From an uncultured Eubacteriales bacterium (lineage in GTDB: Bacteria; Bacillota; Clostridia; Saccharofermentanales; UBA5734): a stretch of 64,000 bases of DNA. Positions 14,036 to 27,449 of the stretch are shown here, piece after piece. The stretch is from assembly GCA_903835065.1 (NCBI GenBank), contig CAILLO010000063.1:1-64000 (forward strand), given 5' to 3'. Made by a program: the position numbers and the translations under genes. Position 1 is the first letter of the stretch, and each line of letters starts with the position of its first letter. The notes under the pieces are model-generated. The model worked only from the letters and a program-made list of their open reading frames with translations. It was not told where the DNA came from and ran no database searches.

Positions 14036-16843
14036 ACGCGCGCGGACGACGCTTCTCGCGTCCCGGCACCGTCCGGAGGTCCCCGCGGGCCATCCCGCCG
14101 CACGGCGGCCGCCGCCGTCGCGGCGCGTCCTGCGCCGCGATACGCCCTCCCGGCGCTCCTGGGCCTCGCCGTCGCCCTCGCGGCCGTCCTCGTCCTGGTC
14201 CTGGTCCCGCTCCTCGCCCCGCCCGCGACCGTCTTCGCCGCGACCGGCGCCCCCGACGCCGCCGGCCTCCGGTCGCTCGTCTTCCGCACCCTGCTCGCGA
14301 GCGACGTCCCGACCGACCCTCAGTCCGGCGAGAACGGCGCTTCGACCGCGGCCGGCCTGTCCACCTGGACCGGCGCCCTCTCGCGCGGCGAGCTCGCCCT
14401 GTCCGATCTGCTGCTCCGCGCCTTCACCGGCACCCGCTACCTGCTCGCCGGCGAGGACGACGCGGCTTTCGCCGCGGCGCTCTTCGGGAGCGTGCTCGAC
14501 CGCGCGCCGACGCAGGAGGAAGCGGACGCCGCGGCGGCCGCGTTCGCGGGCGGCGGGACCCGCATCGCCTTCCTCGACGCCTTCCTTCGGTCCGACGAGG
14601 TCGCCGCCCGCTGCGCCGCGCTCGGCATCCGGGCGGGGAGCGTGCCGGCGGAAACCCTGGCCGCCGCGGCCGGGTCGGGCGGCAGGACGCCGGAGATCTC
14701 CGCGGTCCCGGAGAAGAAGCTGCCGCAGAGCGGAGGATACGCCTTCGGGACCCTGACCTCGAAGGGCACGGTGGACCTCGACGGCCTGTCCGGGCGGGTC
14801 GACTTCTTCGTCGACGGCGCGCTGGTCAACCAGACCTTTTCGACCGCCTCGAACGTGGCCGTCGGCGCCGGCTCCGGCACGGACGGCTCCGGTCCCTCCG
14901 CCTACGACGTCGTCTGGAACGCGGACCTCGAGGCGACCGGCCCGCACGGGGTCGCCGTGCTCGCGCGCCGCGCCGACGGCCGCGGGCTCCTGCTCGACGG
15001 AGGCGCCTACGTCGTCCCGGAGATCCGCGACCTCGCGCCCGGCACGCCGCTCGCGGGCGGCGTCTCCACCGGCGGCACGCCCGACTTCTACCGCATCTCC
15101 GCCGTGGGCGGCCTGCTGTCCTTCCACGCGGTCTACCCCGCGGCCCCCGAGACCCCGACCGCCTTCGCGCGGGCCGGCGAGCCGCTCGCCGCCGATGTCG
15201 CGACCGGAGCCTCCTTCGCGTCGATCGCGCTCCGCGCCGACCTCGGCACGACGGTCTACGTCGAGGTCGCACCCGGCGCGGCGACCGGAACTTCCGCCGC
15301 GACCGTCGCGCCCTACTATGCGCTGCTGGATTCGGACGCCGCCGTCGTCGACGCCTACGGCGCATCGATCACCCTGCGCGCGGCCCCGGGCGGCTCGTCC
15401 GCTTCGGCCGGCTCGCTCGGGAACGGCGCCGTGGCGGCTCTCGTCGGTGAAGGGACCGACTCCGACGGAGAGACCTGGTACCAGCTGCGGGCCAACGGCG
15501 TGGAAGGATACGCCTATTCCGGCTCGGTGCACGCACTGCGCTTCGACGGCCGCCTCGACACGCTGTCCGTGTCGCCGGACGACGGCACGTCCGCCCGTCT
15601 GTCCCCGCGCTTCGACGCGGAGACCGTGGACTACGGCCTTGTGCTCGACCCCTCCGCGCACGCCCTCGACCTGTCCTACGCTGCGCGCGAGGGCGGTCTC
15701 GCCGATGCTTCGGCCGCCGTGGTCGCGGCGGACGGCTCCGAGCAGGCCGTCACGGCCGGCTCGAAGGTCACCGTGCCGGCCGGCTCCAACGTCATCCGCC
15801 TGCGAGTCGTCTCCTCGGACCGCACGACGGTCCGGGAATACCGGATCCACGTCCTGCGGCCGCCCGCGTCGGACGGCTTCTCGTCCACCCTCGGCGCCTT
15901 CCCGGCGTCCTACGCCTCCGCGCTCTGGCTGGTCCACGTGCTGCGCCCGACCTGGGTCCTCGAACCCTACGACACCGGTCTCGACTTCGCCGCGGTCCTG
16001 GCCGGCGAGGAGACCAAGGCCCGCTGTCTCGTCCCGGAAGGGCAGGTGCCGGCCGCCTTCGTCGAGCCCGGCAGCCCCGTCTACGACGGCACCGTCTGGA
16101 AGGCGGCGTCGGACGCGGCCGTGGCCCATTTCTGCGACCCGCGCAACTTCCTGTCCGTCCGCGACCTGTTCCAGTTCGAGCGCCTCGGCTACACCGAGGG
16201 CGTCCAGACGGCCGAGGGCGTGGCGTCGATCCTCGCCGGAACCTTCTTCCTCGACCCCGTGGCGGACACGGACGGCGCGACGGTCGACTACCCTTCGCTC
16301 TTCCTCGCGGCCGGGAGGGAAAGCGGCGCGAGCCCCTATTTCCTGGCTTCGCGCGCGCTCCAGGAGATGGGGTCGGACGGGACTCCGCTCGCCTTCGGCA
16401 CGCTGCCGGGATACGAAGGCTACTTCAACCTCTTCGACATCGGGGCCAAGCCCGATCCGACGGTCGAGAACGGGGCGCAGGTCAACGGGGCGAAGTTCGC
16501 GGAGTTCGGGTGGACGCCCGACGGTTCGGCGCTGTCCGACGCCGAGAAGGCGATCCTCCTGCCGTGGACGTCCCGCAGTCTCGCCGTGCGGGGCGCCGCG
16601 CTCTACCTCGTCTCCGGCTACATCGGCGTCGGCCAGGACACGCTGTACCTCCAGAAGTTCGACCTGCTGCCCGCCGGCGGACTCTATCTCCACCAGTACA
16701 TGCAGAACCTGCTCGCCCCCGTGAACGAAGGGCGCCGGCAGTACCTCGCCTACCTGAGGACCGGCCTCCTCGACACGCCCTTCGTCTTCCGGATCCCCGT
16801 TTTCTCGAATCTGCCCGACATGCCCGCGGACGAGCCCCGGTGA
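14036..16843 (+). CDS. Secreted glucosaminidase-like cell-wall protein, no standard start codon
   Basis: About 935 residues. Signal-like start (RR-rich, then LPALLGLAVALAAVLVLVLV, then an AxA site), a DUF4214-like helical part (about 65-190), beta-rich region, an SH3b-like segment (about 430-500, VVDAYGASITLRAAPGG), a cadherin-like beta-sandwich (about 510-615), and a C-terminal glucosaminidase module (about 620-935) opening with FPASYASALWLVHVLRPTWV. That module keeps DPRNFLSVRDLFQFERL and the probable catalytic Glu in SRALQEMG. Likely cuts or binds peptidoglycan. No in-frame ATG, GTG or TTG exists between the previous gene and the signal peptide; ACG at 14036, eight bases after GGAAGGG, is the best-placed candidate. 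Confidence 0.72.
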   Translation, partial: TRADDASRVPAPSGGPRGPSRRTAAAAVAARPAPRYALPALLGLAVALAAVLVLVLVPLLAPPATVFAATGAPDAAGLRSLVFRTLLASDVPTDPQSGENGASTAAGLSTWTGALSRGELALSDLLLRAFTGTRYLLAGEDDAAFAAALFGSVLDRAPTQEEADAAAAAFAGGGTRIAFLDAFLRSDEVAARCAALGIRAGSVPAETLAAAAGSGGRTPEISAVPEKKLPQSGGYAFGTLTSKGTVDLDGLSGRVDFFVDGALVNQTFSTASNVAVGAGSGTDGSGPSAYDVVWNADLEATGPHGVAVLARRADGRGLLLDGGAYVVPEIRDLAPGTPLAGGVSTGGTPDFYRISAVGGLLSFHAVYPAAPETPTAFARAGEPLAADVATGASFASIALRADLGTTVYVEVAPGAATGTSAATVAPYYALLDSDAAVVDAYGASITLRAAPGGSSASAGSLGNGAVAALVGEGTDSDGETWYQLRANGVEGYAYSGSVHALRFDGRLDTLSVSPDDGTSARLSPRFDAETVDYGLVLDPSAHALDLSYAAREGGLADASAAVVAADGSEQAVTAGSKVTVPAGSNVIRLRVVSSDRTTVREYRIHVLRPPASDGFSSTLGAFPASYASALWLVHVLRPTWVLEPYDTGLDFAAVLAGEETKARCLVPEGQVPAAFVEPGSPVYDGTVWKAASDAAVAHFCDPRNFLSVRDLFQFERLGYTEGVQTAEGVASILAGTFFLDPVADTDGATVDYPSLFLAAGRESGASPYFLASRALQEMGSDGTPLAFGTLPGYEGYFNLFDIGAKPDPTVENGAQVNGAKFAEFGWTPDGSALSDAEKAILLPWTSRSLAVRGAALYLVSGYIGVGQDTLYLQKFDLLPAGGLYLHQYMQNLLAPVNEGRRQYLAYLRTGLLDTPFVFRIPVFSNLPDMPADEPR

Positions 16844-16973: not shown

Positions 16974-19900
16974 TTGAAGCGTCCTTCTAGATTCTTTGCT
17001 CTGACCCTTGTCCTGCTGCTGGGAATCGGCGGCGGACTCGGTACTCTCCGTTCGGACTCCCGCGTGTACGCTCAGGTCCCGACCGACTCGGACGCCGCGT
17101 CCATCGGCCTGTCCGGAACGTTCGCCGGCCTGGCCGACTACGCCACCGTATCCGGCGTCTTCGCCGTCACGGGCGTCGCCGCCGCGACGACGGGCAACGC
17201 CGTCTCCGTCGAGGTCTACCTCGACGGAAAGTACGCGCGGACCGTCCTGCAGGGCGCGGACACGCCGCAGCTCTCCTACTCGTGCACCCTGGACCCCGCG
17301 TTGCTCGACGCCGGCCTGCACCGGGTCGAGGCCGTCGCGTTCGGCGACGACGGCACGCGCCTGCGGATCGGCGGCGCCTGGTTCACCGCGGTGCCCCTCG
17401 TCGCCGCCGCGTCGCTCGACGGTCTTCCGGCCGGCGGCGTCCTGTCCGCCGACGCGCACCTCGTCGCGCACCTCGTCGCCGCCTCGACGCCGCTCGCCTC
17501 CGTCGAGGTCCGCCTCGACGGCGAGACCGCGTCGGCGCGGTCCGTCTCGCCCGCCACGCGCCGCCCCGAGGTCTCCTTCGACGTCCGCCGCGCCGGGCTC
17601 TCCACCGGCCGCCACGTCCTGACGCTCGTCGCCACGGACACCGCCGGCACCGACCGGGTCGTCCTGGAGACCGTCCTCCAGGTGCCACGCGGCGGTGGCG
17701 CGCTCGACCAGCGCCTCGACGTCGCCCTCTCCGGCCGCACCACGATTTCAGGCTTCGTGCTCCACGGCGCGGACTACCCGACCGTCGAGGCCTGGATGGA
17801 CCGGACCGACGCCGCCGGCACCGTGACCTCGACCAAGGTCTGGTCGGGCGCCGCCACCCGCGACCGCACCGAGGCGGCCCTCGGCGCCGACGTCCTCGCG
17901 GCGTCTCCCAGGGGCTTCGCCTTCTCGCTCGACACCGCGCCCTTCCCGGACGGCGCCTATACGCTGCGCGTCCAGGCCGTTCCGGCCTCCGGGAGCGCGG
18001 TCGTCGTCGAGCAGCGCGCGGTCTTCGTCGACAACGCGGACGGCGTCGTGAACGCCGACGGCGTCAACGTGCGCAACCTCCCGACCACCCTGTCTCCCTC
18101 CGCGATCCTGGTCAAGCTGCCGGTCGGCTCCGTCGTCGACGTCCTGGACGCCGAGAAGGGCAACGAGGCGATCTCCGGCAAGGGCACCACCTGGTACCGC
18201 GTCCGCTTCACCTACAACGGGGTCCTCTACGGAACCGACGCCGCTCCCTGCTACATCTACGGCTATTACGTCTCCTCGGATCCGACGATGCGCGCGAACA
18301 CCCTTTCGTCCGTCGAGTTCACCGGGATGGTCCCGTACAACGGATTCTCCTACAACAAGACGGACTTCTCGTCCGTCATCGCGCATGACACCGACCGCAT
18401 CTCCATCGCCCGCCTCTACCGCTATCCCGGCGCCGCCGCGCCGACGCTGACCGTCGACGACGTCGCCGTCTCCGACCTCTACGCCCCTGTCCTCCTGGCA
18501 CCCGGCAGCCACGTGATCGTCCTCACGGTCCCCGCGGACGCCACGAACCCCTCCCGCTCCTACACCTTCCGCGTGCTGCGCCTCGCCGAGCAGTCCGGCA
18601 CGGTCAACGGCAGCCCGACCAACCTGCGCCAGACCGCGACGTCCACCGGCACCCTGCTGAAGGCGCTGGCGAAGGGGACGGCCGTGATCGTCAAGGCGAC
18701 GGTCACGGGCGAGTACGTCGCCTCCTACAAGACCGACCAATGGTACCTCGTGCGCTATCCCTACACCGAGAACGGCGTGGACAAGGTCCTCGAAGGCTAC
18801 ATCATCTCCCCCCTCGTCACCCTGACGAAGTCCGAGAGCGACGACCCGTTCTACCTGAATCTCGCGGCCTTCCCGACCTCCTACCATGCGGCGCTCTGGG
18901 ACATCCACCTCCGCCACCCCGCCTGGACGATCGAACCCCTGATCACCGGCCTCTCCTGGAACACGGCCCTCGCCGCGGAGAGCCAGGCGGGCGCGCACCG
19001 GAACCTGACGCCCTGGTACTCGAACAAGTCCAACGACTTCTACAACATGGTCTCGCCGGACTACGTCGCCGGCGGCGCGCCGCCGACCTACATCGGCTCC
19101 GGCTTCTATATCTGGGATAGCACGAACTGGGTCGCCGCGTCGAAGAAGATGATCGCCTACTACCTCGACCCGCGCAACTTCCTGTCCGACGGCCACATCT
19201 TCCAGTTCGAGAAGCTGGCCTACAACGCGAGCAGCCAGACGCTGGCCGGCATCGACAACATCCTGTCGGGCAGCTACATGGGCAACGGGCGGACCTTCCC
19301 CTATAAGGCCGCCGACGGGTCGACCCAGACGATGAACTACGCCCAGGCCTTCCTCCAGGCCGCTTCGACGGCTGGCGTCAGCCCGTTCCACCTCGCCTCG
19401 AAGTCGCGCATGGAGGTGTCGACCAGCTCCGCGCAGACGGGAACCGTCCAGTCCGCCCCCGACTCGACCCACGTGGCCCTCCCGACGTCGGCGAACCCCA
19501 ACGACGACTTCTACAAAGGATTCACGATCCGGATCACGTCGGGCACCGGCAGCGGCCTGGTCCGGACCATCTCGGGCTACGCCGGGGCGACGCGCACGGC
19601 GACGGTCTCCGCCTGGAGCACGATTCCGGACGCGACGTCGACCTACAGCATCGCGGGCCCCTTCCTGATCTCCTCCGCGCTCGGGACGCTCGGACTCGGC
19701 TCCTCGGTCGCGCTCAACCAGTACTACCTCTGCAAGGTCCTGCCCCCGCACACGGATTTCCAAGTCCAGGACCCGGCCTACCCCGACGACCCGACCAAGG
19801 TCCTCTACGTGCACTACTACGCCGGCTACTTCAATTTCTACAACATCGGTGCCTATCCGAACCCGAGCGTCGAATACGGCGCCCAGAAGAACGCGGTCCT

Positions 19901-20252
19901 GTACGCGCAGTGGGGCGGCTCCTACGAAGGACCGGAGATCCTCACGTCCACTGAGACCGGGACGCTGACGCTCCCGTGGACGGACGCGCTCCGGGCCATC
20001 GTGGGCGGCGCCCAGTACATCCGCACGCAGTACATCGACGTCGGGCAGAACACCATGTACCTCGAGAAGTTCGACGTCGTGGGGCCTTCCTACTACGGCC
20101 ACCAGTACGTCCAGAACGTGCAGGCCGCGGACGACGAGGGCTTGAAGTACTACTACGCCTATCTCGCGTCGGGGACGCTCGACACCGCGATCACGTTCCG
20201 CATCCCGGTCTACGACGACATGCCGGACGCGCTGTCGCCGCAACCGAAGTAG
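16974..20252 (+). CDS. Secreted SH3b/glucosaminidase cell-wall protein with an inserted domain
   Basis: 1092 residues, start TTG with AAGGTGG five bases upstream. Signal peptide about 1-35 (FFALTLVLLLGIGGGLG). Three Ig-like beta-rich segments with the repeated phrase VEVYLDGKYA/VEVRLDGETA follow, then an SH3b domain (about 360-435, VVNADGVNVRNLPTTLSPSA), a beta-sandwich, a second SH3b (about 540-615) and a C-terminal glucosaminidase module (about 630-1092) with FPTSYHAALWDIHLRHPAWT and YYLDPRNFLSDGHIFQFEKL. The probable catalytic Glu is in SRMEV near 813. Directly after it an approximately 80-residue segment interrupts the module, then the family sequence resumes (YAGYFNFYNIGAY). Paralogue of the gene upstream; probably acts on peptidoglycan. 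Confidence 0.85.
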   Translation: MKRPSRFFALTLVLLLGIGGGLGTLRSDSRVYAQVPTDSDAASIGLSGTFAGLADYATVSGVFAVTGVAAATTGNAVSVEVYLDGKYARTVLQGADTPQLSYSCTLDPALLDAGLHRVEAVAFGDDGTRLRIGGAWFTAVPLVAAASLDGLPAGGVLSADAHLVAHLVAASTPLASVEVRLDGETASARSVSPATRRPEVSFDVRRAGLSTGRHVLTLVATDTAGTDRVVLETVLQVPRGGGALDQRLDVALSGRTTISGFVLHGADYPTVEAWMDRTDAAGTVTSTKVWSGAATRDRTEAALGADVLAASPRGFAFSLDTAPFPDGAYTLRVQAVPASGSAVVVEQRAVFVDNADGVVNADGVNVRNLPTTLSPSAILVKLPVGSVVDVLDAEKGNEAISGKGTTWYRVRFTYNGVLYGTDAAPCYIYGYYVSSDPTMRANTLSSVEFTGMVPYNGFSYNKTDFSSVIAHDTDRISIARLYRYPGAAAPTLTVDDVAVSDLYAPVLLAPGSHVIVLTVPADATNPSRSYTFRVLRLAEQSGTVNGSPTNLRQTATSTGTLLKALAKGTAVIVKATVTGEYVASYKTDQWYLVRYPYTENGVDKVLEGYIISPLVTLTKSESDDPFYLNLAAFPTSYHAALWDIHLRHPAWTIEPLITGLSWNTALAAESQAGAHRNLTPWYSNKSNDFYNMVSPDYVAGGAPPTYIGSGFYIWDSTNWVAASKKMIAYYLDPRNFLSDGHIFQFEKLAYNASSQTLAGIDNILSGSYMGNGRTFPYKAADGSTQTMNYAQAFLQAASTAGVSPFHLASKSRMEVSTSSAQTGTVQSAPDSTHVALPTSANPNDDFYKGFTIRITSGTGSGLVRTISGYAGATRTATVSAWSTIPDATSTYSIAGPFLISSALGTLGLGSSVALNQYYLCKVLPPHTDFQVQDPAYPDDPTKVLYVHYYAGYFNFYNIGAYPNPSVEYGAQKNAVLYAQWGGSYEGPEILTSTETGTLTLPWTDALRAIVGGAQYIRTQYIDVGQNTMYLEKFDVVGPSYYGHQYVQNVQAADDEGLKYYYAYLASGTLDTAITFRIPVYDDMPDALSPQPK

Positions 20253-20262
20253 GAGGCGCGCG

Positions 20263-23058
20263 ATGAAGAGAGCGCTCGCGCTCGTCCTCTGCCTCGTGCT
20301 CCTCGCCGTGGGCCTTCCCGCGGCGACGGGACTCTCCGCGCCCTCCGCCGCCGCCTTCACGCTGTCGACGCCCGTCCGCCCGTCCTCGTTCCCCCTCGCG
20401 ACGCCGTCGCGACCGACCTACGGGGGCACGCGGACCGGCTTCGTCGCGGTCTCCGCGGGCGACGCCCACACCGTCGCGCTGCGCGCCGACGGCACGGCGT
20501 CCGCCGCCGGCGACCCGCTCGACGGCCGCACCGCCGTCGACGCCTGGCGCAATCTCGTCGCGGTCTCGGCAGGAGGCCGACATACGGTCGGCCTGCAGGT
20601 CGTCGCCAGCGTCGCGACCGTCGTCGCGGTCGGTTCGGACGACTCCAAACAGTGCGACGTCTCCGGCTGGACCAACATCGTCGCGGTCGCCGCGGGAGGC
20701 CGCCATACGGTCGGACTGCGCAAGGACGGCACCGTCGTCGCCTGCGGCGACGATTCGGTCGGCCAGACCGACGTCTCCGGCTGGACCCAGATCGTCGCGG
20801 TCGCGGCGGGACCCTGGAACACCGTCGGCATCCGCCTGGACGGCACGGCCGTCCTCGCCGGGGCGACCGACCAGGGACAGGGGGCCGTCGACGGCTGGAC
20901 CGACCTGGTCGCGGTCTCCGTCGGCGACGGGCACATCCTGGGCCTGCGCTCGGACGGCACCGTCGTGGAGGCCGGCCGCGGCGAAGAAGGACAGGGGCTC
21001 GTGGCGAGCTGGGGCGGCATCGTGGCCATCTCGGCCGCCGGCCGCCACTCGGTCGCGCTCCGATGGGACGGCGTCGTCCTCGCCGCCGGGGAGAACGGAG
21101 ACGGAGAGCAGACGGCGTCCGCCTGGACGGGCGCGATCGCGATCGCGGCCGGCAGCCGGTTCACGGCCGCGGTGCAGGACGCGAAGGACGCCGCGGGCAA
21201 CGCCAACTACGGCGTGCTGCTCGGCGCCGGCGACGACGGGCACGGGCAGATCGACCTGACGCCGCTGACGTCCGTGACGATGCGCTCTTCGGCCTTCACC
21301 CTCGGCATCGGCCAGGGCTTCGACCTCTCCTGGTCCTCCGCGCCCGCCGACGCCTTCGCGGGCGACGTCGTCTTCACCTCGAACCACGCGAACTGCGTCT
21401 CCGTCGACGCCAGGGGCCGCGTCACGGCCGTCGCCGCGGGCACCGCGCGCATCACCCTGTCCAGCCCGACCTACGGGCTGTCCGCCTTCGTCGACGTGAC
21501 CGTCCCCGCCACGGCCCCGACGCTCGTGCAGCGCGCCCGTCCGACTTCCTTCCCGCTCGCCGCGCCGTCGTCGCTCGTCGCGGGCGTACCCGCCGGCCCC
21601 GCCCTCGTGTCCGCCGGCCGCGACCACGTCCTCGTCCTGGCCGGCGACGGCAAGCTGACCGCCACGGGTCCGGGCCGGTTCGAGGAGACCGACGTCGCGT
21701 CGCTGACGGCGGGCGGCGCGCTCGCCTCCGTATCCGCCGGATCTTGGCACTCGGCCGCGGTCCGCCTCGACGGCACGGTGGCCGACGTCTGCAACGGCTC
21801 GCTCTTCCGCTGCGACGCCGCGACCTGGACGAGCATCGTGGCCCTCTCCTCCGCGCCCGGCTTCCTCGTCGGACTCGAGGCCGACGGCACGGCCCGCGCG
21901 ACCCCGGACGGCCCCGACGTCTCCTCCTGGACCGACCTCACGGCCGTTGCGGCCGGCGGGCGCCACGCCCTCGGCCTGAAATCCGGCGGCACGGTCGTCT
22001 CGGCCGGCGCGAACGACGCCGGACAGACCGCCGTCGGCTCCTGGACCGGCATCGTTGCCGTCGCCGCGGGTGCCTCCCATTCGGTCGGCCTGCGCGCGAA
22101 CGGGACCGTCGTCGCGGTCGGCGACGACTCCTTCGGCCAGTGCCGCACGTCCTCCTGGACCCGCGTCGTCGGCGTCGTCGCCGGCGAATCCTTCACGGCC
22201 GCCCTGCGCGCCGACGGCACCGTCGTCTGGACCGGCCGCCCGTTCCGCGGCTCCGCCGACGTCTCCGGCTGGAGCGGCATCCTCTCGATCAAGGCGGGCC
22301 GCGACTTCCTCGTCGGCGTGGACGCCGCGGGCGACGTGCTCGTCTCCGGAAGCCGGGCCACCGCCTCCTCCGTCGACTCCCTCGCGTCCCTCGCCGTGTC
22401 CGCCGGCACCCTGTCGCCCGCCTTCGATCCCGCGTCGGACGGCCCCTATCGCGTCACGCTCGACGACCTGGTCGACGCCGTCGTCGTGCGGGCGGTCCCC
22501 TCCGACGACTATGCGGTCGCCACGGGCGACGGATACAAGGCGCTCGCGGTCGGCGAGAATCCGGTCGACCTGACCGTGACCGCCCAGGACGGTTCCTCCC
22601 GCACCTACCACCTGGTCGTCGAGCGCCGTCCGCCGCAGGCCGTCAGCGCCACCCTGTCGATCGACGCGTCGCTCTCGGTCCTTTCGGGCATCGCCCCCGG
22701 CACCTCCGTCGACGCGGTCGCCGCGGCCGTCACCGCGACGGGCGCCACGGTCTCGATCGTTACCGCCGCCGGCGACCCGGCGAGCGGAAGGGCCGGCACT
22801 GCCATGCGGCTCCGCGTCACGATCGGCGGAACGGTCTTCCAGGAACTGCACCTCATCGTGTACGGCGACCTGAACGGCGACGGCCTGGTCAGCGCCTCCG
22901 ACCTGCTCCTCCAGAAGCGCCTCATCCTGGGCCTCGCCACCCTCGGCGCCGATGCGACGCGGGCCGGCGACGTCGACTTCAGCGGCAGGATCTCCGCCTC
23001 CGACCTGCTCCTCCTCAAGCGCCACATCCTCGGCCTCTCCGTGCTCCGGACGAAGTGA
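20263..23058 (+). CDS. Secreted double RCC1-propeller protein with C-terminal dockerin
   Basis: 931 residues with a signal peptide (about 1-30). Two blocks of seven RCC1-type repeats each (about 60-310 and 447-698; pattern VaaGxxHtvgLrxDGTV) are each preceded by RPxSFPLAxPS, so a whole seven-bladed propeller unit appears duplicated. A Big2-like Ig domain (about 334-415) separates them. Then come a cadherin-like beta-sandwich (about 707-790), an X-module-like segment (about 795-865) and a type I dockerin (867-931) with two calcium-loop and helix repeats, GDLNGDGLVSASDLLLQKRL and GDVDFSGRISASDLLLLKRH. Dockerins bind cohesins, and the next gene encodes a cohesin-like protein. The propeller's ligand is unknown. 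RBS GGAGGCGCG; 10 bases after the previous stop. Confidence 0.88.
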   Translation: MKRALALVLCLVLLAVGLPAATGLSAPSAAAFTLSTPVRPSSFPLATPSRPTYGGTRTGFVAVSAGDAHTVALRADGTASAAGDPLDGRTAVDAWRNLVAVSAGGRHTVGLQVVASVATVVAVGSDDSKQCDVSGWTNIVAVAAGGRHTVGLRKDGTVVACGDDSVGQTDVSGWTQIVAVAAGPWNTVGIRLDGTAVLAGATDQGQGAVDGWTDLVAVSVGDGHILGLRSDGTVVEAGRGEEGQGLVASWGGIVAISAAGRHSVALRWDGVVLAAGENGDGEQTASAWTGAIAIAAGSRFTAAVQDAKDAAGNANYGVLLGAGDDGHGQIDLTPLTSVTMRSSAFTLGIGQGFDLSWSSAPADAFAGDVVFTSNHANCVSVDARGRVTAVAAGTARITLSSPTYGLSAFVDVTVPATAPTLVQRARPTSFPLAAPSSLVAGVPAGPALVSAGRDHVLVLAGDGKLTATGPGRFEETDVASLTAGGALASVSAGSWHSAAVRLDGTVADVCNGSLFRCDAATWTSIVALSSAPGFLVGLEADGTARATPDGPDVSSWTDLTAVAAGGRHALGLKSGGTVVSAGANDAGQTAVGSWTGIVAVAAGASHSVGLRANGTVVAVGDDSFGQCRTSSWTRVVGVVAGESFTAALRADGTVVWTGRPFRGSADVSGWSGILSIKAGRDFLVGVDAAGDVLVSGSRATASSVDSLASLAVSAGTLSPAFDPASDGPYRVTLDDLVDAVVVRAVPSDDYAVATGDGYKALAVGENPVDLTVTAQDGSSRTYHLVVERRPPQAVSATLSIDASLSVLSGIAPGTSVDAVAAAVTATGATVSIVTAAGDPASGRAGTAMRLRVTIGGTVFQELHLIVYGDLNGDGLVSASDLLLQKRLILGLATLGADATRAGDVDFSGRISASDLLLLKRHILGLSVLRTK

Positions 23059-23072
23059 AGGGAGTCCCTCCC

Positions 23073-23897
23073 ATGATCAGGACCATCCACGCGAACCCCC
23101 GCCCCGCCCGCCCGGGCTCCACGCGTGCCCGCCGCATCGCCGCGCCGCTGCTCGCCGCCGTCCTGCTGCTCCTCGCCCTGCCGGCGGGGCGCGCGCCCGT
23201 TTCCGCCGAGTCGGCCGTCCAGGTCAAGCTCCTGCCGAGCGCGACCGCGCTGCAGTCCGGACAGACCCTCGTCCTCGAGCTGCACCTGTACGATGGCCCG
23301 GACCTCCAGAAGCTCGGCCCCATCGCGATCCAGCTCGATTCCGCCCGCTTCGCGTACCCGGTCGTCACCCCGGGCCCGACGGTCCCCTCCGGCTTCTCGG
23401 CCAAGCTGCAGGACGGCCGGCTCCTGGTCTCGTTCCAGGAGGCGTCGGCGTCGAAGCCGCTTCCGCAGGGCGTCGACGTCCTGCTGTGCACGATTTCGCT
23501 GCAGGTGCTGGACGATCCGTCCGCCGGTGCCACCTCACTCGCCCTGGTCAGCGCCGCAGGGTTCCTGGATGCGGACGGACTGCAGGTCTCCGCCTACACC
23601 ACCGACATGACGCCCGTCGCCGTCCAGCTCGCGCCGTCCGCGACGCCGCTGCCGACCCCGTCGCCCACGCCCGACCCGTCCGCCTCGCCGGCCGCACCGA
23701 CCCAGGGCCTCACCCCGACGCCCGAGGCGACCCGGTCCCCCACTCCGACGCCCGGCTCGAACATCTTCGGTCCCGAGTCTCCGTCCTGGCTCTGGCTGGC
23801 CTTCCTGGTCGCCCTGGCGGCCGCCCTCTTCGAGTTCTTCCTGCTGGTCGGCCGGGCCGGCCGCCGCCCCGCCCGCCGTCCGACCCGCCGACGCTGA
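23073..23897 (+). CDS. Membrane-anchored cohesin-like protein
   Basis: 274 residues: signal peptide (Arg-rich, then PLLAAVLLLLALP, probable cut after VSA at 45), one beta-rich domain (about 47-185) with a cohesin-like strand pattern (TALQSGQTLVLELHLYDG, then GRLLVSFQE and LLCTISLQVLDD), a Pro/Thr/Ser-rich linker (about 186-245), a transmembrane helix (about 246-268) and an Arg-rich cytosolic tail. The layout is that of a surface anchor. ATG 23073 lies 15 bases after the upstream dockerin gene, with AAGGGAG overlapping that gene's stop. Cohesins are divergent, so the fold call is moderate; a plain Ig-like domain is the alternative. Confidence 0.68.
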   Translation: MIRTIHANPRPARPGSTRARRIAAPLLAAVLLLLALPAGRAPVSAESAVQVKLLPSATALQSGQTLVLELHLYDGPDLQKLGPIAIQLDSARFAYPVVTPGPTVPSGFSAKLQDGRLLVSFQEASASKPLPQGVDVLLCTISLQVLDDPSAGATSLALVSAAGFLDADGLQVSAYTTDMTPVAVQLAPSATPLPTPSPTPDPSASPAAPTQGLTPTPEATRSPTPTPGSNIFGPESPSWLWLAFLVALAAALFEFFLLVGRAGRRPARRPTRRR

Positions 23898-24020: not shown

Positions 24021-24551
24021 ATGGGTTCGTTCCTGAAGAAGATCCGCTCCGTCCTCACCCGGGAGGTCGTCCTCTATGTCGTCTTCGGCGTCCTCACGAC
24101 GCTGGTCAACTACGTCGTCTTCATCGGCCTCGACCTCCTGTTCGGCGAGCACACGGTCCTCTGGTCCGGCACCCTCGACCTGCTCGTGTGGCGCGGAACC
24201 GCCTCCGTCGAATTCTGGACGCTCGCCAACGTCGTCGCCTTCGTCGTCGCCGTCGCCTTCGCCTTCGTCACCAACCGGAACATCGTGTTCCAGGCCGGCG
24301 CGTCGACGGGGGACCGGAAGAAGGACCGCGCGAACCTCGCGCGGCAGACGGTCCTCTTCTGGGGCGCCCGCCTCGTCAGCCTCCTGATCGAATACGGCAT
24401 CCTGTACGTGCTGATGGACCGACTCGGGGTCCAGGACTTCTACAGCAAGATCGCGTCGAACGTCGTCGTCGTGGTCGTCAACTACTTCTTCAGCAAGTTC
24501 ATCATCTTCGCGACCCCCCGCAAGGACGCCGCGGACCCGGCGGGAGGCTGA
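24021..24551 (+). CDS. GtrA-family membrane protein
   Basis: 176 residues with four hydrophobic helices. The family pattern is present: an opening EVVLYVVFGVLTTLVNYVVF, the central FVTNRNIVFQ and the closing NVVVVVVNYFFSKFIIF. GtrA proteins are thought to help move lipid-linked sugars, such as polyprenyl-phosphate glucose, across the membrane. It is four bases upstream of a polyprenyl-phosphate sugar transferase gene, which supports a role in surface glycan assembly. Confidence 0.88.
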   Translation: MGSFLKKIRSVLTREVVLYVVFGVLTTLVNYVVFIGLDLLFGEHTVLWSGTLDLLVWRGTASVEFWTLANVVAFVVAVAFAFVTNRNIVFQAGASTGDRKKDRANLARQTVLFWGARLVSLLIEYGILYVLMDRLGVQDFYSKIASNVVVVVVNYFFSKFIIFATPRKDAADPAGG

Positions 24552-24555
24552 CGGG

Positions 24556-25989
24556 ATGGCGAAGGACAGCGGGTCCGCCCGGAGCCACCGCTTCTCGACG
24601 GCCGCCCACCTGTTCAAGATCTTCTTCGTCCTGCTGGAGCTGGCGCTCGTCGTCGGCTCCTTCATCCTCGCGTTCTTCCTCCTGTTCGGCCCGGACTTCC
24701 CGAACCTGCCGATGAACAACTTCATGGCCTTCGTGGATTCGGTTCCGCTTGTCCTCCTCGCCGCGCTGATCTTCCTCGACCTCTTCGGGATGACCCACTT
24801 CTTCCGCAAGACCAACGAGGACATCGTGGGCGCCGCGCTCCGGTTCTCGGCCCTGGAGGGGATCGCCGCGACGGCCGCCGCGTTCTTCGTGCGAGGGTTC
24901 TCGGTGCCGCGCAGCGTGATCCTGGTCGGCTCGCTGATCCTCTTCGTCGCGACCTCCCTGTGGGGCGCCGCCGGGCTGGCCCTGAGCCGGTGGATCTACG
25001 CCAAGGGACGCCTGATCGTCGTGGGCCACAGCGAACAGGAGCTGAAGAAGGTCGTCGCCAAGGTCTCCGGCAACCTGCATGCCCTGCATGTCGACCTCGT
25101 CGGGACCTGCCTGTGCGAAGACCTGGCGTGCGTGGAGCGTGCGATCGCCGGAGCCTCCGAGGTCCTCCTGTGCCCCGACGTCCCCGACGACGCCAAGTTC
25201 TCGCTCCTCCTGACCTGCACGGCCCTCAACAAGCCCGTGTATGTCGTCCCGCAGCTCGTCGAGGTGGCCTTCCTGAAGAACCGCCTCCTGCAGTTCTCGG
25301 ACATGCCCGCGATCATGATCGACCGGCTCGGCATGACCTTCGAGCAACGTCTCGTGAAGCGTCTCTTCGACCTCTCGCTGTCCGTCCTGATCCTCGTGGC
25401 CGCCTCGCCCGTGATGCTGCTGACCGCGGTCGCGGTGCGCCTCTCGTCGAAGGGGCCCGTGATCTACTCCCAGGAACGCGTGACGCGCGACAACCGGCAC
25501 TATCGGATCCACAAGTTCCGCTCGATGCGGACCGACGCCGAGTCGGCGACCGGCCCCGTGATCTCGGGCAGGGGGGATCCGCGCGTGACGCCCGTGGGGC
25601 GGCTGATCCGCCGGCTCAAGATCGACGAGCTGCCGCAGTTCTTCAACGTCCTGAAGGGCGAGATGAGCATCGTCGGGCCCCGTTCCGAGCGCCCCTTCTT
25701 CGTCGAGCAGTTCGAGAAGGACATCCCGGGCTATCACCAGCGCTTCCGCGTCAAGGCCGGGATCACGGGCTTCGCCCAGGTCGCGGGCAGCTACGACTCG
25801 CTGCCGGAGGACAAGCTCCGCTACGACCTGATCTACATCAAGAGCTACTCGATCCTCCTCGACCTCCGGCTGATCCTCGAGACGGTCCGCGTCGTCTTCT
25901 CGACGTCGCTGTACAACCGGACGTTCCACCGCAACCTCACCGAGTTCTCCACCAACGGCCGCAAAGAGGGGGGAGAGCCCCACCCGTGA
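24556..25989 (+). CDS. Polyprenyl-phosphate sugar phosphotransferase (exopolysaccharide initiation)
   Basis: 477 residues. The N-terminal half has about four membrane helices and a Rossmann-like segment ([16 protein letters not shown]). The C-terminal half (about 270-477) is a bacterial sugar transferase of the WcaJ/WbaP type: [59 protein letters not shown] and [14 protein letters not shown]. Such enzymes put the first sugar phosphate on undecaprenyl phosphate for exopolysaccharide or glycan chains. The specific sugar cannot be told. Its stop overlaps the GTG start of folC. Confidence 0.92.
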
Positions 25990-27449
25990 AGAATCTCGAT
26001 GCGGCCCTCCGGTTCTTCGCCTCGTCGGAGCGCTTCGGCATCCGGCTCGGGCTCGAGCGCATGCGCTCCCTGATGGCCCGCCTCGGCGGCACGCCGCAGG
26101 AGACCGTCTACCTCCACATTGCCGGTACCAACGGCAAGGGATCCGTGACCGCCTTCGCCGCCTCGGCGCTGGCCGCCGCCGGCTACCGCGTCGGCGTCTA
26201 CACGTCCCCGTTCCTCTTCCGCTTCTCGGAGCGGATCCGCGTCCTCGACGGCGTGGCCGGGCTCGAGGCCCTCGTCCGCGACGACGCGGCGGGGGAGATC
26301 CCGCCGGAGGCGGTCGTGCGCCTGGCCGCCCGCGTGGAGCAGGCGACCGAGGACATGCGCGCGGCAGGGGAGGAGCACCCGACCGAATTCGAGCTGATCA
26401 CGGCCGTCGCCTTCCTCCATTTCGCGGAATGCCGCTGCGACGCCGTCGTCCTCGAGACGGGCCTCGGCGGCCGACTCGATGCGACCAACACGATCGATGC
26501 GCCGGACGTCTGCGCGATCACCGCGCTCGGTTACGACCACTGCGACCGTCTCGGGAACACGATGGCGGAGATCGCCGCCGAGAAGGCCGCGATCATCAAG
26601 CGCGGGACCCGCGTGGTCCTGCAGGACCAGGGCTCCGCCGGCACGCCCGAGGACGCGGCCGTCGCCGAGGCCGTGGTGCGGGCGCGGTGCCGCGAGGTCG
26701 GCGCCGGACTCCGCATCGCGCACGCTTCCGAATGCACGACCCTCCGGCAGGGCCTTTACGCCCTCGACGGCCAACCCGGGCAGGTCCTCCGGTTCGACCC
26801 TCCCGGCGCCGTCCTCGAGACCGCCCTGCTGGGCTCCTACCAGCCGCTCAACGCGCTGACCGCCTACCGCGCCCTCGAGGCGCTCGCCGAGACCGGCCGG
26901 CTGCCCCGCCTCGACGCCGCCGCGATCGTGCGCGGCTTCCGCCTGACCCGATGGCCCTGCCGCTTCGAACTGCTCGCGAAGGACCCGCCGGTCCTTGCAG
27001 ACGGGGCGCACAACCCCCAGGGGGCCGAGTCGCTCCGCCGCAGCCTGTCCGCCGTGGTGCCCGGCCGCGCCGTGCATTTCGTCTGCGGCGTCTCGGCCGA
27101 CAAGGACTACCCCGCCATGCTGTCCGCCCTCCTCGCGGACCCCGACCCCGCCGCCGTTTCCGCCTTCCGGCCCGCCTCCTTCCGCGCTGTCGCCGCCGAC
27201 CACCCCCGCGCCCTTTCTGCTCCGGCCCTGGCCGAAGCGGCCCGCGTGGCGGGCGGCTCCTCGCTCCGTACCGGGTCCTGCGTCCGGATCGAGGACGCGC
27301 TCGCCGAGGCCGTGCGCGAGGCCCGGTCCGACGGAGGCGCGGTGTGCGCCTTCGGATCCCTGTTCCTCATGCGCGGGATCCGCTCCGCCCTGCCGCGGGC
27401 GCTCGCGATCGACCGGCCGAAGGAGGTACGACCCGGATGGACTGGCTGA
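25986..27449 (+). CDS. folC: Folylpolyglutamate synthase / dihydrofolate synthase
   Basis: Mur-ligase-family enzyme adding glutamates to folates and often joining glutamate to dihydropteroate. It has 487 residues from GTG 25986, which overlaps the upstream stop codon (GTGA). P-loop HIAGTNGKGSVTAF near 43-56, EYTSP-like VYTSPFLFRFSERIRV, ETGLGGRLDATN and the C-terminal DGAHNPQG motif are all present. The GTG is supported by AGAGGGGGGAGAG upstream and by lack of a better start. It overlaps the start of the next gene by 13 bases, so translation is likely coupled. Confidence 0.93.
   Translation: MKNLDAALRFFASSERFGIRLGLERMRSLMARLGGTPQETVYLHIAGTNGKGSVTAFAASALAAAGYRVGVYTSPFLFRFSERIRVLDGVAGLEALVRDDAAGEIPPEAVVRLAARVEQATEDMRAAGEEHPTEFELITAVAFLHFAECRCDAVVLETGLGGRLDATNTIDAPDVCAITALGYDHCDRLGNTMAEIAAEKAAIIKRGTRVVLQDQGSAGTPEDAAVAEAVVRARCREVGAGLRIAHASECTTLRQGLYALDGQPGQVLRFDPPGAVLETALLGSYQPLNALTAYRALEALAETGRLPRLDAAAIVRGFRLTRWPCRFELLAKDPPVLADGAHNPQGAESLRRSLSAVVPGRAVHFVCGVSADKDYPAMLSALLADPDPAAVSAFRPASFRAVAADHPRALSAPALAEAARVAGGSSLRTGSCVRIEDALAEAVREARSDGGAVCAFGSLFLMRGIRSALPRALAIDRPKEVRPGWTG

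Follow-up and report, generated by a model that had tools for sequence, protein, structure and literature searches.

A predicted membrane-anchored cohesin and its neighboring dockerin in a conserved wall-hydrolase operon of Saccharofermentanales

The dockerin and cohesin genes

The window analyzed here is a stretch of 64,000 nucleotides (positions 1 to 64,000 of contig CAILLO010000063.1, assembly GCA_903835065.1) from an uncultured Eubacteriales bacterium of the order Saccharofermentanales. It contains two adjacent genes on the forward strand, as are all genes of the window described below. The first, P0001 (20263..23058), encodes a signal peptide, an RCC1 propeller, a Big_2 domain, a second RCC1 propeller, a cadherin-like domain, an X-like module and a type I dockerin. 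The second, P0002 (23073..23897), begins after a gap of 14 bases from the P0001 stop codon and is assigned, from its sequence and its orthologues in two relatives (G001 and G003), a signal peptide, one cohesin, a Pro/Thr linker, a C-terminal membrane helix and a basic tail. The initial annotation, made from the sequence of the window, had read the two genes as a device for displaying propellers at the cell surface, with a dockerin on the first product and a cohesin on the second.

The dockerin (22861..23031) is supported by sequence and structure alike. The Pfam family Dockerin_1 (PF00404) matches residues 867-923 of P0001 at 1.5e-12 over 57/57 positions, including both repeats, and each of the two calcium-loop repeats carries A10 S11, K17 R18 and G22. 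The AlphaFold2 (AF2) model of the tail (22615-23055) has a predicted local distance difference test score (pLDDT) of 93.7, and the modeled dockerin superposes on those of Clostridium thermocellum xylanases (1OHZ_B, 2CCL_B) within 0.6-0.7 Å, at 44-46% identity, so that the annotated two-repeat type I dockerin at the end of P0001 is borne out. The same holds for its cargo of two propellers: Pfam delineates two sets of RCC1 repeats with the Big_2 domain between them. A propeller of the BLIP-II kind, which would bind penicillin-binding proteins, is unsupported, as BLIP-II was not among the matches listed by either the single-sequence or the profile search. Further RCC1-repeat proteins of about 600-800 amino acids, in which no dockerin was detected, are encoded in many genomes of the family (e.g. 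G000:C47:165841-166074) and are a possible source of the P0001 propellers.

The X-like module ahead of the dockerin (22651..22854) is common to most dockerin tails of the order in alignment A5 and is predicted confidently (AF2 pLDDT about 95-97). Structural comparison of the module gave only weak, immunoglobulin (Ig)-like matches (Z about 4) and no known X-module fold; it may represent an undescribed X-type module.

P0002 has no match in Pfam, the cohesin model included. The AF2 model of its beta domain (residues 44-190; 23202..23642), built from an alignment of related loci, has a pLDDT of 86.7 and a predicted template modeling score of 0.82. The best matches of this domain in the PDB are all cohesins, mostly of type I, with Foldseek (E 4.9e-8), and type I cohesins with VIA-align (Z 16.9 over 137 residues at 1.9 Å). 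The family profile finds cohesin chains by sequence, too, and a leave-one-out hidden Markov model (HMM), from which the close orthologue was excluded, scores P0002 at E 3.7e-7 (Z=1000), with unrelated downstream genes at 23 or worse. By its predicted fold and its relatives, and not by Pfam, the P0002 domain is a divergent cohesin, as the initial annotation had supposed, a Pfam match being the usual marker of cohesins rather than their defining trait. The missing Pfam match would also fit an unrelated immunoglobulin-like or pilin-like sandwich, an explanation that is extremely improbable given that cohesins occupy the first 43 ranks of the structural matches (Z 16.9 to 12.0), with the first non-cohesin, CLIPPER, at 12.0 and pilins at 11.4, and that the profile matches are to cohesin chains.

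The C-terminal membrane helix (23787..23846) has the sequence WLWLAFLVALAAALFEFFLL and is followed by an Arg-rich tail ending in GRAGRRPARRPTRRR; no LPXTG-type motif precedes the helix in P0002. The genome of the window (2.5 Mb in 82 contigs, 98.5% complete) encodes no SLH domain; sortases are present, and the cohesin proteins are without an LPXTG-type signal. This agrees with the annotated anchoring by a membrane helix instead of SLH modules or sortase. P0002 was not found on plasmids.

The pair in the genome and across the order

Genome-wide, Pfam finds two dockerins and one cohesin, P0002 being a second cohesin gene that falls below Pfam detection. A cohesin-membrane gene comes directly after each of the dockerin genes (2/2), and because the genome has no other dockerins, the adjacency is not a matter of chance. 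In the second pair, on contig C17 (L004 4353-6796), the dockerin lies directly upstream of the Pfam-matching cohesin, whose gene is laid out like P0002 (signal peptide, cohesin, cadherin-like domain, Pro/Thr linker, membrane helix). The cargo of the C17 dockerin is an S8 subtilase; its frame is broken by a single frameshift before the X-like module and the dockerin, which reflects either an error of assembly or a genuine interruption. Searches of the genome yielded neither a multi-cohesin scaffoldin, each of the two cohesin genes having one cohesin match, nor a dockerin-bearing plant cell wall hydrolase; the dockerins are on the RCC1 protein and the S8 protease gene, so that the absence of cellulase cargo, noted initially for the locus, extends to the whole genome.

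With two such pairs, it is conceivable that the window pair is not cognate, and that its modules pair crosswise with the C17 set or that all four are interchangeable. Specificity could indeed overlap, given that K17 R18 are present in both repeats of both dockerins. Such cross-pairing is nevertheless doubtful, as both dockerins have a cohesin of their own next to them, the cohesins share only 16% identity, and the C17 subtilase gene is frameshifted ahead of its dockerin.

The order was sampled with 57 relatives in addition to the genome of the window, 38 genomes having dockerins and 20 having none. A cohesin gene, as detected with the leave-one-out HMM, follows 38 of the 47 assessable dockerin genes, mostly at a spacing of -4 to +88 bases and frequently with a 4-base overlap, so that related genomes keep the two genes as neighbors. 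Cohesins passing the Pfam threshold are found in 21/38 dockerin genomes vs 0/20 dockerin-less ones, the latter being partly fragmentary, with the cohesin at a contig start in two of them, so that the dockerin gene may be missing. Neither a non-cohesin fold nor the loss of the pair in relatives, the refuting outcomes that had been set beforehand and were examined, occurred.

The dockerin cargo typical of the order is an SH3-GH73 peptidoglycan glucosaminidase, a relative of SagB and Atl, rather than a propeller; this enzyme bears the dockerin in at least 24 loci, and the other cargoes are S8 subtilases and one LRR/Big_2 protein. The recurring gene order, traced by synteny with tblastn, is GH73a, GH73b-dockerin, cohesin, GtrA and folC. 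In the window, as in G001 and G003, GH73b is without a dockerin, and the RCC1-dockerin gene lies between GH73b and the cohesin gene. The last ~230 residues of P0001 align with the tails of GH73-dockerin proteins (e.g. 30% identity over 233 amino acids, 1e-18), which points to a tail transfer between neighbors: the dockerin tail was probably passed from one adjacent gene to the other. Since a GH73 glucosaminidase is the normal dockerin cargo, the neighboring wall hydrolases belong to the system. Thus, the dockerin/cohesin pair of the initial annotation stands, whereas a stand-alone two-gene propeller device does not, the pair being part of a conserved wall-hydrolase operon that includes the adjacent hydrolases. 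In one relative, a frame of 2435 residues (L098 7687-14991, G007 contig C59) has a dockerin on its N-terminal side, Listeria-Bacteroides repeats, a cohesin on its C-terminal side and a C-terminal membrane helix, that is, plug and socket in a single protein.

The two genes upstream of P0001 had been described as wall-hydrolase-like, in agreement with their SH3 domains and GH73-type glucosaminidases. GH73a (14057..16843, start codon approximate) encodes an N-terminal membrane helix, DUF4214, SH3, a cadherin-like domain and a GH73-type glucosaminidase, without a dockerin; Pfam supports DUF4214, SH3_3 and the cadherin-like domain, and homologues of the gene, also of GH73 type, occupy the corresponding position in the operons of relatives. 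The position of DUF4214, between the membrane helix and SH3, is unusual beside a glucosaminidase. GH73b (16974..20252) encodes a signal peptide, SH3 domains (Pfam SH3_3), a cadherin-like domain and a GH73-type glucosaminidase that matches Atl/AutE in the PDB; orthologues in the order carry the dockerin that is missing here. A family profile including this protein matches SagB at 2.5e-17, along with AutE and Atl, in the range of 1e-15 to 1e-17. Glu814 of GH73b is invariant in 19 homologues and is the putative catalytic residue.

Downstream of P0002 is a kept neighbor, the gene for a GtrA-like membrane protein (24021..24551; Pfam GtrA 8e-17, synteny), followed by a bacterial sugar transferase gene (24556..25989; Pfam Bac_transf 1.3e-61, synteny), whose adjacency is kept in the congener G001. 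The kept end of the gene block, identified by tblastn synteny, is a folylpolyglutamate synthase-like gene (25986..27449) that we take, from recognition of its sequence, to be folC. An ARAGORN call of tRNA-Ala (CGC) at 26247-26331, inside the folC coding region, is probably spurious in this GC-rich stretch.

Dockerin binding and other possible partners

If the dockerins of the order are under selection for cohesin binding, this should be visible in their recognition residues. The two repeats within a dockerin agree at positions 10, 11, 17 and 18 in 82, 70, 77 and 59% of 44 cases, respectively, compared with 12-20% for repeats exchanged at random between proteins. At the sequence level, this symmetry, shared by the window dockerin, is the pattern of dual-binding dockerins. 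The distances between dockerins are also correlated with those between cohesins once the folC distance is removed (partial r 0.66, permutation p 0.0005, n 23). As related loci do not count as independent cases, this covariation is no more than suggestive. A Mantel value obtained with 40 pairs was set aside, two of the pairs (G007 C138, C50) not being cohesins. From the fold, the repeat symmetry, the adjacency and the covariation, we infer that the dockerin binds the cohesin.

Several observations weigh against this reading. The correlation falls to 0.47 (n 15) when the GH73 distance is removed as well, and the covariation is exaggerated by relatedness and by co-inheritance. Pfam does not detect P0002, and the mature domain by itself, scored with a profile from which both orthologues were excluded, reaches only 0.0018 (best shuffle 0.71). 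In the strand corresponding to Asn37/Asp39 of the C. thermocellum cohesin, which we take to be the dockerin-contacting one, the letters differ, P0002 having Leu-Gly-Pro, so that its contacts with the dockerin must differ. Outside the order, among 69 named GH73 loci, none of which was in the profile training set, a cohesin-like gene lies directly downstream in 43, and the GH73 protein carries a dockerin in only 5 of these 43; within the order, one dockerin-less genus keeps GH73, the cohesin-like gene and folC, with GtrA in some cases. Dockerin binding cannot be the sole role of the cohesin-like family, a limit that does not touch its proposed role where dockerins exist.

A dockerin-less GH73 gene followed by a cohesin-like membrane gene is seen in Lachnospiraceae and other Clostridia (L200, L217, L160, L193, L166, L219 and others). 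The cohesin-like proteins of such loci either have an older partner, namely GH73 itself or the wall, or face dockerins too divergent to be seen. In Ruminococcus, the apparent head-to-head arrangement of GH73-dockerin and cohesin-like genes (L148, L153, L173, L195, L214, L215) was discarded, as it is recovered with a longer profile only and fails with the domain-only profile.

Because GH73 and cohesin-like genes so often occur together without a dockerin outside the order, the combination of GH73 and cohesin appears to be the more ancient core. The cohesin-fold domain might mainly bind a partner that is not a dockerin, for instance the GH73 enzyme or a wall polymer, the dockerin being a later add-on or reinforcement in the order. 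The 43 outside-order loci, with their 5 dockerins, and the dockerin-less genus speak for this possibility, which is nonetheless somewhat unlikely as the whole account: the cohesins score far better as cohesins where dockerins exist, and the symmetric recognition residues are expected if dockerin binding is selected. It is also compatible with a dockerin-binding tether, as the older function. A bolder extension, in which cohesin-fold membrane proteins are old, Clostridia-wide partners of GH73, cohesin-dockerin coupling perhaps first served to tether wall enzymes, and the dockerin of the window moved from enzyme to propeller, is quite unlikely.

Proposed role and comparison with known systems

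Taken as a whole, the locus is likely to be a one-to-one, calcium-type, membrane-anchored cohesin-dockerin tether within a cell-wall remodeling operon, not a cellulosome. P0002 would be exported and retained in the membrane through the helix at its C terminus, with the single cohesin held outside on the Pro/Thr stalk. The secreted RCC1 protein would dock on it through the calcium-loaded dockerin, and the two propellers would thereby be held at the membrane-wall interface, beside the two GH73 glucosaminidases of the same operon. In most relatives, the GH73 glucosaminidase itself would be docked, whereas in the window the tail of cadherin-like domain, X module and dockerin is on the propeller protein. 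In either case, the membrane receptor may hold one secreted partner near the site of wall synthesis. That this plug-and-socket operon is kept across the order suggests that the coupling is there to maintain the cell wall and not to digest cellulose.

The type I pair of C. thermocellum (1OHZ, 2CCL) is similar in both modules, with the close dockerin superposition described above and a cohesin fold match of Z 15.2, and differs in its multi-cohesin scaffoldin, compared with one cohesin on a membrane helix and no cellulase cargo here. OlpA and OlpC of the same bacterium (3UL4, 4DH2), which are among the best structural matches, are type I surface-anchoring cohesins for single dockerin proteins; they are attached by SLH modules, unlike the membrane helix found here in an operon with peptidoglycan glucosaminidases. 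We know of no linked cohesin for the RCC1-dockerin protein Cthe_0258 of C. thermocellum. That protein has the RCC1-dockerin architecture of P0001, with five RCC1 repeats listed, and, unlike what is proposed here, is a cellulosomal component (PMC6083626). Together with the type I modules, Cthe_0258 would be consistent with the locus being a remnant of a degenerating cellulosome. This origin is very improbable: cohesin searches of relatives found no multi-cohesin scaffoldin, the dockerins are carried by wall hydrolases, S8 proteases and LRR/Big_2 proteins, and synteny shows the same operon to be kept across the order.

Cohesin-dockerin pairs are already known outside cellulosomes, from Clostridium perfringens glycosidases and from mucinolysomes. 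The C. perfringens enzymes (NagJ and others) share with the tether proposed here a non-cellulosomal pairing, and the NagJ cohesin is a structural match to the P0002 domain, but they pair enzyme to enzyme, in contrast to the dedicated membrane receptor proposed here. The Limousia mucinolysome likewise operates outside cellulose but comprises five scaffoldins, tandem cohesins, a sortase anchor and mucin enzymes (PMC12997984). In the open-access literature, no description was found of a single cohesin with a membrane helix encoded in a conserved operon alongside peptidoglycan glucosaminidases, or of a dockerin or cohesin tied to GH73 or to peptidoglycan hydrolases. A functional parallel comes from Staphylococcus aureus, where new glycan strands are trimmed and released by the GH73-type enzyme SagB under the control of the membrane protein SpdC (PMC12272431). 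There, a GH73-type glucosaminidase is held and regulated by a membrane partner, and the GH73 proteins of the order match SagB; SpdC, however, is an integral membrane protein of the CAAX protease family, as opposed to the single-span cohesin protein of the window.

Cohesins and dockerins are mainly known from plant-fiber degradation and, to our knowledge, isolated dockerins in other bacteria usually go without explanation. A simple arrangement of one receptor and one cargo, linked across the order to peptidoglycan glucosaminidases, would give such dockerins a testable function. The locus would then be an analogue of SagB-SpdC built from other parts, and may offer a view of cohesins before or beside cellulosomes. 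On the bolder and quite unlikely reading given above, the coupling that later became famous from cellulosomes would have been used, perhaps first, to tether wall enzymes to the membrane.

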